From: Bacteroidota bacterium
Lineage (GTDB): Bacteria > Bacteroidota > Bacteroidia > Bacteroidales > Paludibacteraceae
Length of the DNA: 59,318 bases
Direction of reading: 5' to 3'
Assembly (NCBI GenBank): GCA_017860345.1
Contig: JAFNAV010000020.1
Location: 1 to 59,318 of the forward strand
Position numbers and translations under genes: made by a program. Below, one piece after another: positions 55,386 through 59,318 of this stretch; the first letter of the stretch is position 1; each line of letters starts with the position of its first letter. The notes beneath the pieces were generated by a model that was given only the letters and a program-made list of their open reading frames with translations, had not been told where the DNA came from and searched no databases.

Positions 55386-55964
55386 TTAAAATGCAGCTAA
55401 TTTACGGGTGTTCTTGTCCCAGTGCGGAGCGTTGCCGATAGCCTGAATTACATCTTCGGCCTTGTCAACTACCTGCCACATGTTTCGATGAATATCGCGC
55501 ATAAAATTTTCATCTACAGCTTTATGCAGCATTTCGATGAGTGGGTTGAAATAGCCGTTCACATTTACAATGATAATAGGTTTTGTGAAAATGCCAAGTT
55601 GTTTCCATGTAATAATTTCGAGGAGCTCTTCCAGCGTACCGCACCCACCCGGGAGTGCCACGGCAGCATCGGCCATCGAGGCCATTTTTTCCTTTCTTTC
55701 GTGCATGGTTTCGGTCATGATAAGTTCTGTGAGCCCGTTGTGGTTCCATTCCTGCTCGCACATAAAGCGCGGTATCACCCCGGTAACCTCGCCTCCCGAA
55801 CGCAATACGCTATCGGCAATTTCGCCCATCAAACCCAACGATCCACCGCCATATACCAACCTGAGGTTAAGCGCAGCCATAGCTGCTCCCAGCTGTTTGG
55901 CTGCTTCAAAGTAAACAGCATTTATTTTTGTGCTTGATGCACAATATACACAGATATTTTGCAT
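55386..55964 (-). CDS. LOG family protein (nucleoside monophosphate phosphoribohydrolase type)
   Basis: A 192-residue Rossmann-fold protein with the signature GGGSLGLMGE, PRFM and ALPGGCGTLEELLEIITW. LOG enzymes remove ribose-5-phosphate from nucleoside monophosphates, in plants from cytokinin precursors; the bacterial substrate is usually AMP or unknown. It lies 13 bases before the DUF4271 gene, so it is probably the first gene of that operon. Confidence 0.9.
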   Translation of the reverse strand: MQNICVYCASSTKINAVYFEAAKQLGAAMAALNLRLVYGGGSLGLMGEIADSVLRSGGEVTGVIPRFMCEQEWNHNGLTELIMTETMHERKEKMASMADAAVALPGGCGTLEELLEIITWKQLGIFTKPIIIVNVNGYFNPLIEMLHKAVDENFMRDIHRNMWQVVDKAEDVIQAIGNAPHWDKNTRKLAAF

Positions 55965-56136: not shown

Positions 56137-56184
56137 AGCTAAATTATTGAAGCCAAAATAAGCTAAATTATTGAAGCCAAAATA
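56137..56184. repeat. Perfect tandem duplication of 24 bases
   Basis: Two adjacent identical copies beginning AGCTAAATTATTGAAG; a partial third copy precedes. The second copy ends exactly where TGTAGGGGGC begins. Confidence 0.85.
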
Positions 56185-56510: not shown

Positions 56511-56547
56511 TACCCCCTGCATACCCCCTGCATTTTACCCCCTGCAT
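56511..56547. repeat. Three direct copies of TACCCCCTGCAT
   Basis: Copies at 56511, 56522 and 56536, spaced 11 and 14 bases, that is about one helical turn. Possible protein-binding sites at the element end. Confidence 0.65.
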
Positions 56548-56655
56548 TCCCCGTCATTTTTAATCGTTAACACCTACCTATTTCAGAAACATTGATATTA
56601 TCGATTAAAAATCATTTCGTGTATAACTTTTGAAAAAATATATTACTTTTGTGTC

Positions 56656-56724
56656 GTCGGAGCTGCGTACTTCGGCACACGTTGGCAGGTTATTCTTCGG
56701 AATGGGCTGCCAATGTCATTTTTA
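56656..56724 (+). ncRNA. Tandem structured RNA, unit A
   Basis: A TACTTTTG -7 box at 56644-56651 precedes it. Hairpin 1: GTCGGAG (56656-56662), loop CTGCGTA, CTTCGGC (56670-56676), seven pairs with two wobbles. Hairpin 2: ACGTTGGCAG (56679-56688) / CTGCCAATGT (56707-56716) with an inner ATTC-TTCG-GAAT tetraloop, then TTTTT. The whole is a short RNA with a Rho-independent end. Confidence 0.65.
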
Positions 56725-56730
56725 TAGTTA

Positions 56731-56762
56731 TTTGTTTTATTCCTATAAATACATTACTTTTG
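56731..56762 (+). promoter_or_regulatory. Canonical promoter of RNA unit B
   Basis: TTTG at 56731-56734, exactly 20 bases, then TACTTTTG at 56755-56762. It begins 7 bases after the terminator T run of unit A. Confidence 0.75.
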
Positions 56763-56766
56763 TGCT

Positions 56767-56835
56767 GTCTGCGTTGCGCACGTGGACGTCTTATGGCAAA
56801 TATAGCTTCGGTTGTGTTTGCCATTCGTATTTTTC
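56767..56835 (+). ncRNA. Tandem structured RNA, unit B
   Basis: Hairpin 1: GTCTGCG (56767-56773), loop TTGCGCA, CGTGGAC (56781-56787). Hairpin 2: ATGGCAAA (56793-56800) / TTTGCCAT (56817-56824) closed by a C-TTCG-G tetraloop, then TCGTATTTTT. The sequence of both stems differs from unit A while the pairing is kept. Confidence 0.7.
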
Positions 56836-56879
56836 ATGAATATATTGTACAACAATTTAAAATATATTTGTTTTGCAAT

Positions 56880-56951
56880 GTCGGAGTTGCGTACTCTGAT
56901 GCTACCCGTGGCGAATAGGTTATTTATAACTTGCTCGCCACGGTTCATTTT
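56880..56951 (+). ncRNA. Tandem structured RNA, unit C
   Basis: A promoter ATTG (56844-56847), 20 bases, TTGTTTTG (56868-56875) lies in the same register as in unit B. Hairpin 1: GTCGGAG (56880-56886), loop TTGCGTA, CTCTGAT (56894-56900). Hairpin 2: CCGTGGCGA / TCGCCACGG (56906-56914 / 56935-56943), then a T-rich tail. Confidence 0.65.
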
Positions 56952-56958
56952 AAAATAA

Positions 56959-57039
56959 TGCCTACAAAACAGTATTGCCGAATAAAGAATTAGTAATTTC
57001 TTATTCGGCAATACAATTAAAAATAGCTTATAGTAGGCA
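56959..57039. terminator. Nested hairpin at the 3' end of the repressor gene
   Basis: A perfect 14-bp stem GTATTGCCGAATAA (56972-56985) / TTATTCGGCAATAC (57001-57014) inside an outer 7-bp pair TGCCTAC (56959-56965) / GTAGGCA (57033-57039). Probable terminator of the repressor transcript on the minus strand. Confidence 0.65.
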
Positions 57040-57053
57040 CTAAGTAATTTATT

Positions 57054-57764
57054 TTATGTGTTTTCGCTACTGTCGATCTCTTTTAATAACTCTGATAATG
57101 TTTTTTGATGCTTATCTGTAATCTCAATTATTTTCATCATGGCATCGCTTTCGTTTAAAAAATCATTGTATATAACATCGTACTTATCAATCACCTGCTT
57201 AATCTCTTCAGGAATAACAGTATCATCTTTACCCTCTTTTATGGAGTTGGTCATTACTTCTAATATATTGTGAGTGATATCAAGTTCTAATGTTTGTTGA
57301 ATTTGTTCGCACAGTAATTGAGTTGCCATAAATTGCTTTGATAATTTATTGAAACTATCATATTTAATACTAGTATCATATTTTGATTTGTAATTATTAA
57401 ATATCATCCACGTAAAAGCCTTTGTTAATTGCTCCTGAGTTGTTTCCTGTTCATTTATAACTATTTCACTTTTATTTTCACTCAATTGTAATTCGCTTTC
57501 AGTTATAATTGATTTTGTGACTGATGAGTCTAAAGACCCATCAGTTGAGTTGCTTAAAAACCAATCAATTGAAATGTTTAATTTAGACTTTAATTCACTT
57601 AATATCTTTGTAGTAACTTCTCTTTTCCCATTTTCAAGTTCAGAGTAATACGATTGCTTTACACCCAGTAATGTAGAAAAATCTTTTTGATTCATTCCCT
57701 TTTCTATCCTGATTTTCTTTATCTTATCACTAAGAGTGATTTTATTTTTGAAAATATTTTCCAT
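57054..57764 (-). CDS. XRE-family regulator, probable repressor of the Mu-like element
   Basis: A 236-residue protein with an N-terminal HTH_3 domain (about 12-66: LSDKIKKIRIEKGMNQKDFS, LLGVKQSYYSELENGKREVT quoted in parts) and a long, mostly helical C-terminal part with no peptidase Ser/Lys motif. It diverges from a small HTH gene and a DDE transposase gene, the arrangement of c, ner and A in phage Mu. The AT-rich composition agrees with foreign origin. Confidence 0.75.
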   Translation of the reverse strand: MENIFKNKITLSDKIKKIRIEKGMNQKDFSTLLGVKQSYYSELENGKREVTTKILSELKSKLNISIDWFLSNSTDGSLDSSVTKSIITESELQLSENKSEIVINEQETTQEQLTKAFTWMIFNNYKSKYDTSIKYDSFNKLSKQFMATQLLCEQIQQTLELDITHNILEVMTNSIKEGKDDTVIPEEIKQVIDKYDVIYNDFLNESDAMMKIIEITDKHQKTLSELLKEIDSSENT

Positions 57765-57839: not shown

Positions 57840-58043
57840 ATGGATAATCGACAAGAATTAAAGAAACTTTTACCCTATGGAGGTCAAAAAGAAATTGCAA
57901 AGAGACTAAATGTGACAGTAAGTTTAGTATCAAACTATTTCTCTGGCTTAAATAACAGCGAATTGGTAGAAAAAGAGGTATGTAATTACTTAGCAGAGAT
58001 CGCCGAAAATAGACGTCAGTTGCTAATAAAAGCATTGTCCTAA
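57840..58043 (+). CDS. Small HTH protein, Ner/Cro-like
   Basis: A 67-residue DNA-binding protein: YGGQKEIAKRLNVTVSLVSN forms a helix-turn-helix (about 13-35), and SELVEKEVCNYLAEIAEN a following helix. Size, position and orientation opposite the repressor match Mu Ner, which limits early transcription. It is 14 bases before the transposase gene. Confidence 0.7.
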   Translation: MDNRQELKKLLPYGGQKEIAKRLNVTVSLVSNYFSGLNNSELVEKEVCNYLAEIAENRRQLLIKALS

Positions 58044-58057
58044 AGCCTGATTGTTTA

Positions 58058-59318
58058 TGGATGGTATTAGAATCATAGATAATAGTAGTAATCAGGTTTT
58101 CCTGTCGTATTCATGGATAATTGAAAATTCAGATATTCCAGAAAAGACAGTAAGATTTTGGAGTACGCGAGATGTAGGCGTTCGATTTACAGAAGGTAAT
58201 CGCGCTTATATTGACTATGATACTATCCCTGAACAATCGCGTAAAAAATTACCTTCAAAAGAGGGGATAATTTCCATTTACAAAGAAGAAACAAATGCTT
58301 TTGCTGACAACTGTCAAACATACAATTGTTTTGCAGTTCTCGACACCGCATATCACGTTGAGTTCGTTAAATACCGTCAAATTTATATTGATTTAGGGTT
58401 CAGTGGCGAAAAGGTAACCGAATATGCCCGAAAACATGCTGTTTGGACACGAATTGTACAACTCCACGACGAACATCATAAATTACGCTATATATACGAT
58501 GCTTATTCAATGGTATTACCGGGCGGTTATGTGTACGGTCGTATGAATGTGAATATCAATAAATGCAAAACAAGCGGTGTAACATCACTTCTTGTGAAGG
58601 ATGCACGAAGTAATGACAATGCCAAAAAATACGATGCTCGTTACGAGGCTTTTGTAGTTCGGTTTATGAGTAGTGGAAAAGCTTACGAACGAACCATAAT
58701 ACACGATGCATTGATTGAAGAGTGTGAGCGGCTTGGATGGGAAAAACCATCGTACAGCTGGGTTAAATACTGTGTGGCTCGCAATATGAATCATGCTAAA
58801 CGTGGTAGATATGGCGAAATGGAATACTTTTCAAAAGAAGAATCGTATGCCGGCATTATCAAAGCTCTATATACTCACGATCAGTGGCAAATTGATGGTT
58901 GGACTTTACCTTTTTACATGGAAGGAATGACGAAACTCACCCTCTTTGCTGTGATGGATGCAAGTAGCGGTTATATAATTGGCTATGACATAGCACCAAC
59001 CGAAAATACTGAAACTATACTCCGAGGACTCGAACGGGCCGTAAAAGTGGCAAAATGTCTCCCTTATGAAATAGTATCGGACAATCACTCATTCAATAAA
59101 ACAAAAGAAGCTGAATACCTGAAAATAAATACCGATAAATTGGGTATGACATGGACGGTAACATCTAATCCACGTCATAAAGGAATAATTGAACGTAGGT
59201 TAGGTGTTTTAGGACGCAAATTTATGAAGAGATACCCGGGTTATATTGGTGAAGGTATAAAAACTAAAAATCCCGATGGTAGAACATCGCTTGAAGAATT
59301 GACCAAATACCAACGTTC
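58058..59318 (+). CDS. Mu-like DDE transposase, cut by the window end
   Basis: An open frame of 420 codons runs off the window. Residues about 15-60 hold a small winged-helix-like part, about 110-250 helix-rich site-binding parts, and about 270-385 an RNase H-like core with acidic triad D280 (QIDGW), D342 (VSDNHS) and E379 (KGIIERRLG). The spacing and the gene order repressor-ner-transposase place it with MuA-type transposases of phages or transposons. The following B ATPase would lie outside the window. Confidence 0.85.

Follow-up and report, generated by a model that had tools for sequence, protein, structure and literature searches.

The 59,318-nt stretch analysed here (the window; contig JAFNAV010000020.1 of assembly GCA_017860345.1, from a Bacteroidota bacterium of the Paludibacteraceae) harbors an array of three tandem small RNA genes, units A, B and C, at 56640-56955 on the + strand. 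In this study, these units were found to belong to an RNA family that elsewhere lies convergently behind the MuF toxin genes of phages, for which it probably supplies the antidote. The features of the array are listed below; the span of unit A is that of R1, a covariance model derived from the three units and the related unit of genome G001.

56640..56726, + strand: unit A, with the -7 box TACTTTTG at 56644-56651
56656-56676, + strand: hairpin of unit A, loop CTGCGTA
56679-56716, + strand: terminator stem of unit A, followed by a T-rich tail at 56717-56726
56751..56837, + strand: unit B, with its -7 box at 56755-56762
56767-56787, + strand: hairpin of unit B, loop TTGCGCA; terminator stem at 56793-56824
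56864..56950, + strand: unit C, with the exact box TATATTTG at 56863-56870
56880-56900, + strand: hairpin of unit C, loop TTGCGTA; terminator stem at 56906-56943

When the coordinates were re-read, the three units were placed as the initial annotation had proposed, each with a -7 box, a 7-bp hairpin and a terminator, and folding also returned the UUCG tetraloop that it had noted as closing two terminator hairpins. The spacing given for the -7 box held for units A and B but not for unit C, which has no exact TAnnTTTG 4 bases ahead of its hairpin; TTTG alone stands there, and the exact box lies 9 bases before the hairpin, shifted by 5. The pattern TTTGNNNNGTCNGNGYTGCGYAC, taken from the 5' part of the units (<=2 mismatches), matched three times in the window versus 0.01 expected from shuffles. 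Moreover, the fold z-scores of A, B and C were -4.8, -4.7 and -5.9 (standard deviations below shuffles), with 0 of 200 shuffles folding equally well, although pairing between the outer loop bases allows the hairpins of B and C to be drawn with 5-nt loops as well. These z-scores, together with the covariation and loop conservation described below, support the view that the units are discrete small RNA genes. A coding array was rejected, as the + strand open reading frames (ORFs) over the units begin with TTG and span the units, and linker lengths vary among homologues. The whole window gave no Rfam match at the gathering score, and permissive filters returned matches at chance level only, so that membership in a known small RNA (sRNA) family, which had been left open, found no support.

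The comparison of the wider family was based on 19 distinct hairpins from 26 units, excluding those of G093, G340 and G047, which do not fit an ungapped 7-7-7 layout. The loop pattern YTGCGYA first described matches A, B and C but gives way in this set to the consensus N-U-G-Y-G-Y-N, in which U2 and G3 are present in 19/19 hairpins and G5 in 18/19. Stem pairing was retained in 96% of cells, whereas shuffles averaged 83% and reached 89% at most, and 200 sequence pairs differed on both sides of a base pair, the shuffled maximum being 108. The 26-unit alignment A5 gave a covariation score of 0.69 versus 0.27 when shuffled and <=0.17 when slid, a value biased towards the structure since A5 was fitted to it. 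The compensatory changes and the conserved loop thus bear out the proposed selection on stem pairing and on the loop. Self-kissing of the loops was considered and discarded: although the UGCGYA of A, B and C is self-complementary, the palindrome is broken in L142 (CUGCUUG), L137 (UUGCGCG) and others.

Relatives of the units were sought in other genomes by DNA similarity and with covariance models, the latter a check suggested with the first description. At the DNA level, a search of 60 genomes (its own included) found one good outside match, that of unit B at 95% in G001, where, within a prophage, the unit is flanked by MuF (PF04233) and Phage_tail_S genes and lies on the strand opposite to theirs; two further short matches, in G024 and G039, lacked the hairpin. 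R1 over 100 genomes matched G072, from a different genus, with E 2e-9, and the RNA there follows a shorter MuF homologue; the remaining new matches had E 0.02 to 0.8 (L091 was inspected, and L092-L099 were judged by scores and some alignments). In L091, tandem intergenic hairpins at 1440-1710 (GGAGTTCCGACTCC) resemble the 5' stem and have neither loop nor terminator.

Separate scans of 295 genomes of the order found the toxin profile in 7 genomes and a further RNA model, R2, in 11 including the window's own. Toxin and RNA were both present, adjacent and convergent, in G093 and G340, whose toxin-adjacent units are absent from R2, which includes a different G093 unit (L090). The G047 toxin locus carried a third, weaker RNA (27.7 bits, R2), and the other four toxin loci among the 295 genomes gave no R2 match; three of the loci (L184, L185 and L186) showed by eye a different antisense -7 box with another possible RNA, and in L188 the toxin profile probably matched a 60-aa frame with a stop by chance. 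In a phylum-wide draw of 395 genomes, just one other genome matched at E<=0.001; the family therefore seems rare and largely limited to Bacteroidales. Copies occur in tandem in L147 (three), L153 (two) and L220 (two), and copies without an adjacent muf gene occur in the window, G254 and G179 (C23).

Single R2-type RNAs were also observed on bacterial contigs (L090 1501-1591, L191 1501-1587, L192 1501-1585), with no MuF gene within the fetched stretch and one unit downstream of a tRNA-Pro gene; these are likely orphan copies. The weak R2 matches L193-L197 and L270 were judged from ORF lists and scores. Regular CRISPR-array-like repeats lie upstream of the one in L194 (450-966). In L199 (1057-1598), a convergent promoter and a weak R2 match are present at the 3' end of a small gene that matches no Pfam family and looks toxin-like by eye, so that the convergent arrangement of promoter and RNA may not be limited to MuF.

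MuF loci were gathered independently of the RNA through the backbone alignment A4, which gave 64 IMG/VR loci. PF04233 (MuF) scored above its cut-off in G001 (30.0), L272 (30.3) and hankyphage (35.7) and below it in L189 (26.7) and L151 (24.5), the remaining loci being assigned by A4. The C-terminal domains of 61 loci fell into eight clusters, three loci being too short to sort, and the largest cluster (31 loci) carries a CdiA_C-type domain (PF18451, a PD-(D/E)XK nuclease), as indicated by both profile matches and fold: L147 exceeded the Pfam cut-off, and 11 of 18 members of the type matched at E<=0.1. A sequence search of the PDB with the toxin profile gave a single chance-level match, Foldseek without VIA-align found nothing at E<=0.001, and PADLOC had no match for three MuF proteins. 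Since L123 is cut and L167 ends 75 nt past the stop, 29 CdiA_C-type loci were counted. The RNA was detected in 27 of them (R1, E<=0.01; the identical 27 with R2), L177 and L178 having neither an R1 nor an R2 match, and in 0/29 loci with other toxin domains (Fisher p 3e-14; dereplicated, 12/14 versus 0/24, p 3e-8, where the 24 include L158, a miss under R1). The linkage count excluded L133 and L136, which are cut, L146, in which a frame change breaks the toxin domain, and L158, which has a weak CdiA_C; L146 matched at E 0.0025 (R1) and 40.5 bits (R2), and L158 at E 0.84 (R1) and 29.5 bits (R2). The RNA is antisense to muf throughout, at the stop codon in 24 of the 27 loci and 56-57 nt behind it in three. 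Overlap between the model span and the MuF frame measures 3-11 nt in 23 loci and 34 nt in L153, and the span of L147-L149 ends 56-57 nt past the stop.

Furthermore, RNA and toxin domain vary together. Among 21 MuF-RNA pairs, some of them closely related, the correlation between RNA identity and toxin-domain identity was 0.82; the partial correlation was 0.71 given the MuF backbone (0/2000 permutations) and that of the backbone given the toxin 0.05. The corresponding values for 38 dereplicated loci of all toxin types were 0.65 and 0.05, and the partial value for 26 loci outside the core CdiA_C type was 0.38, given without a permutation test. Both the eight clusters and the pair L104 and L106 (on the same contigs as L153 and L151) illustrate a variable toxin domain on a conserved MuF backbone, the pair having near-alike backbones with differing toxin domain and RNA. 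In L135, the first half of the toxin domain resembles that of L119 and the catalytic half that of L128, and its RNA resembles the L128 RNA. As judged from these comparisons, the RNA sequence tracks the toxin domain and not the MuF backbone.

The position behind MuF is also occupied at other toxin types. TAnnTTTG was found on the antisense strand 40-75 nt from the MuF stop in 34 of 40 loci (2.3 expected; 0 on the sense strand), these being the 38 dereplicated loci plus L165 and L172, for which no usable promoter had been found earlier, with L167 dropped. L145, L147, L162, L164, L165 and L172 are the exceptions, and outside the core CdiA_C type the promoter was present in 23/28 loci. Most other MuF toxin types have a different antisense promoter and a putative RNA in this slot. 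Fold z-scores of these candidate RNAs were -4.5 (L152), -3.5 (L150), -3.4 (L151), -2.8 (L174 and L189) and -2.0 (L179), and two folded no better than shuffles (L107, -0.4; L154, -1.3). Behind MuF, 55 loci have an ORF of at least 60 aa in reach, the length from which ORFs were searched systematically; the first one starts at 100-161 nt in 34 of them, nearer (-29 to 99 nt) in 16 and beyond 161 nt in five, the near starts partly reflecting permissive start codons.

A second predicted RNA type, that of the LPD3-type cluster, was confirmed by its own covariance model, R3, which was built from five RNAs behind MuF genes of that cluster. In 295 genomes, R3 gave a new match in G166 (64.4 bits), immediately following a MuF gene in which both PF04233 and PF18798 exceed their cut-offs; its other top match, G281, belonged to the training set, and among six weaker matches L273-L275 were inspected and had no MuF gene in their ORF lists. 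In G281, the LPD3-type RNA beside MuF is followed by a CdiA_C-type RNA. By eye, L145 (4165-4497) has an apparent RNA of its own and one resembling that of L150, whose toxin differs, and in L189 (1300-1700) two different antisense RNAs stand in a row behind one MuF (R2 and R3). The second RNA in L145 and L189 looks as if it were an older antidote, retained from another toxin type.

Small ORFs behind MuF were present in hankyphage p00, BKO1-TP4 and the Winogradskyella phage Peternella_1, the last with two such ORFs on the same strand as MuF. The MuF proteins of hankyphage p00 and BKO1-TP4 bear a glutamine-deamidase toxin domain (PF15644, 39.8 bits in p00), and their convergent slot has the same kind of promoter but a small protein gene. 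In hankyphage p00 (L265, 3680-3979), this is an antisense 'hypothetical protein', probably an immunity protein driven by a Bacteroidetes-type promoter. We take the slot to be one for immunity genes, occupied by RNA in the case of toxins that are predicted nucleases.

In sequence terms, the genes, their structures, the linkage to toxin type, the slot and the unlinked copies are demonstrated. Because the same RNA is found convergent behind MuF genes with a CdiA-CT-like domain, the earlier reading of the array is revised, and because the family elsewhere stands directly behind phage nuclease-like toxin genes, the RNAs are probably antidotes. Each unit is thus read, with good though incomplete confidence, as an independent RNA antitoxin (immunity) gene specific for one toxin type. 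The RNA of unit B shares 91-92% identity with those behind the MuF toxins of L134, L143 and G001, and that of unit C 91% with the L132 RNA and 89% with the L119 RNA, which accompany MuF toxins of another subtype; between these two subtypes, the toxin domains share 32-37% identity. Units B and C would cover two toxin subtypes. Unit A has no known partner toxin because its top match to a toxin-linked RNA is just 61%, and neither A nor unit D, described below, has a close toxin-linked partner. In the proposed mechanism, the RNA would be transcribed in the lysogen from its own promoter, would fold into the hairpin and the terminator hairpin, and would most likely bind and block the cognate nuclease as type III antitoxins do, so that the producing cell and lysogens struck by a sister phage would be protected. 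Units A, B and C together with unit D would constitute an orphan polyimmunity locus that a reduced Mu-like element has retained.

Several other functions must be weighed against that of an antidote to the toxin protein. The RNA might instead lower muf expression as an antisense, type I-like regulator, since it converges on the muf 3' end and its model span overlaps the muf frame in 24/27 loci. However, the overlap amounts to 3-11 nt in all but one of these and is absent in L147-L149, and copies occur in the window, G254 and G179 (C23) with no muf alongside. The antisense role first suggested for the loop, examined here against muf mRNA only, was likewise not supported, as the duplexes of 11 loci did not surpass those formed with shuffled mRNA (mean z +0.62), and such regulation is considered unlikely. 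Slightly less probable is that the RNA gene serves the head operon as a bidirectional terminator or spacer, hitchhiking with the toxin cassette and having no anti-toxin function. A hairpin with T-rich ends at a gene boundary would suit it, and physical linkage would explain the co-inheritance; linkage between neighbours would by itself yield part of the co-variation of RNA and toxin. Nevertheless, a terminator needs neither the conserved NUGYGYN loop and covarying stem nor the consensus antisense promoter, and it would not account for the tandem copies and those away from MuF.

The pairing of one RNA type with one toxin type, and the capacity that predicted nuclease domains may have to bind RNA, would also suit a cofactor or virion passenger that is bound by MuF, packaged or required for activity. 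This is improbable, since a toxin-less array matching more than one toxin subtype fits immunity genes rather than cofactors, and since the slot beside the glutamine-deamidase MuF of hankyphage holds a protein gene. Least probable is regulation of host mRNAs through the heptaloop, by a family of trans-acting sRNAs of host or phage: the RNAs are small and multi-copy with a conserved single-stranded loop, but they are tightly linked to one toxin-domain family, occur sporadically and match no Rfam family. The antitoxin interpretation is therefore preferred. Mimicry of tRNA was also considered and rejected, as 25 hairpin pieces compared with 30 distinct G001 tRNAs gave best z-scores of -1.7 to +2.4 against shuffled pieces (the tRNAs, from 30 of 50 G001 tRNA matches, did not include that for alanine, and the pieces from G001, G047 and units C and D were out of register). 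In a set of 31 tRNAs, 29 of them Gln, the L153 hairpin scored 22 with one tRNA-Pro against a shuffled mean of 14.5 (sd 1.8), and with G001 tRNAs its z was only 1.6.

The array adjoins the repressor end of a Mu-like element, the surroundings of which are as follows (HTH, helix-turn-helix).

55386..55964, - strand: host LOG-family (Lysine_decarbox) gene, left chromosomal flank (Pfam match)
56972..57014: inverted repeat of 21 bp separating the array from the repressor gene, for which it is probably the terminator
57054..57764, - strand: HTH_3 repressor-like gene of the element (PF01381, 54.9 bits)
57840..58043, + strand: gene for a small HTH protein (sub-threshold HTH matches), which we take to occupy the position of Ner
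58051..59316, + strand: transposase in the MuA position, cut by the window end (Pfam rve match below cut-off)

The same element is present on IMG/VR contig L108/L200, with 99.85% identity over 2,629 bases. L200 carries the transposase, a transposition ATPase (phrog_296), a tail-fibre-like gene, unit D and then a host epimerase gene, and the full 694-aa copy of the transposase matches the phrog_310 transposase; unit D is a fourth RNA unit, at the opposite end of the element. With the HTH repressor, this transposase and its ATPase partner make up a Mu-like left end. A PHROGs scan of five L200 proteins found one tail-fibre-like and no head protein, and G000, the window's draft genome (86% complete), gave no MuF match. 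In relatives, the LOG and epimerase genes are divergent neighbours (epimerase match on 11/80 loci), and the element therefore sits between them. Because these genes adjoin each other there, and the same element on L200 ends at that epimerase, a host-encoded array was rejected and the array most likely lies inside the element. Short direct repeats, TACCCCCTGCAT and ATTATTGAAGCCAAAAT, were seen between the host flank and the array at window positions 56511-56560 and 56139-56180; they may be sites at which the transposase acts on the element's left end.

Type III toxin-antitoxin systems (ToxIN, CptIN and TenpIN) encode their RNA as short direct repeats upstream of the toxin, in one operon and before a terminator. 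The present system shares with them a structured RNA gene adjacent to a ribonuclease-type toxin gene, as in the 27/29 CdiA_C-type loci (the window units being orphan), and by analogy the toxin is probably neutralised by direct RNA binding. Unlike in those systems, the RNA is encoded convergently, downstream of the toxin gene, and has a predicted promoter and terminator of its own, the toxin is the C-terminal domain (CdiA_C or LPD3) of a phage head protein, the RNA differs by toxin type, and orphan arrays exist.

Excerpts of previous studies describe MuF polymorphic toxins of temperate phages as having a MuF N-terminus, a swappable C-terminal toxin and an immunity gene directly behind (PMC5576092; PMC11699363), and small immunity proteins adjoin the MuF toxins of Bacteroidales (PMC11699363). 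The loci analysed here share this organization, except that the immunity position holds an RNA gene, whereas the immunity described in those excerpts consists of small proteins with no mention of RNA. CdiA-CT/CdiI toxin/immunity pairs of the PD-(D/E)XK class are likewise outlined for B. pseudomallei 1026b and E479 (PMC9086364); here, by comparison, the toxin is carried by a phage head protein instead of CdiA, and an RNA gene stands at the place of CdiI. Polyimmunity loci, as summarised in part of PMC3482391, are tandem functionally equivalent immunity genes without a toxin, some beside recombination genes. The window resembles them in its three tandem units of presumed immunity function in a draft genome without a MuF match; however, the loci described there encode proteins, and the window array would encode RNAs. 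Among the matches listed in literature searches for an RNA antitoxin in this setting, no title concerned RNA immunity to a MuF or contact-dependent inhibition (CDI) toxin.

In conclusion, these findings make it reasonably probable, if less so than the role proposed for the individual units, that a general and unrecognised class of RNA immunity exists, in which head-delivered nucleases with a variety of folds, among them CdiA_C and LPD3, are each neutralised by a structured RNA of their own in a fixed antisense slot, and in which these RNAs accumulate in multi-specific polyimmunity arrays on prophage remnants. In the literature excerpts cited above, it is proteins that act as the antidotes of polymorphic toxins. 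If the proposal is true, the biology of type III toxin-antitoxin systems would be joined to that of virion-delivered toxins, and the scant room for an immunity ORF behind many nuclease MuF genes would be explained. Moreover, RNA polyimmunity loci would become findable by means of covariance models, and hankyphage offers a cultured relative with the same slot and existing RNA-seq (PMC12135933).
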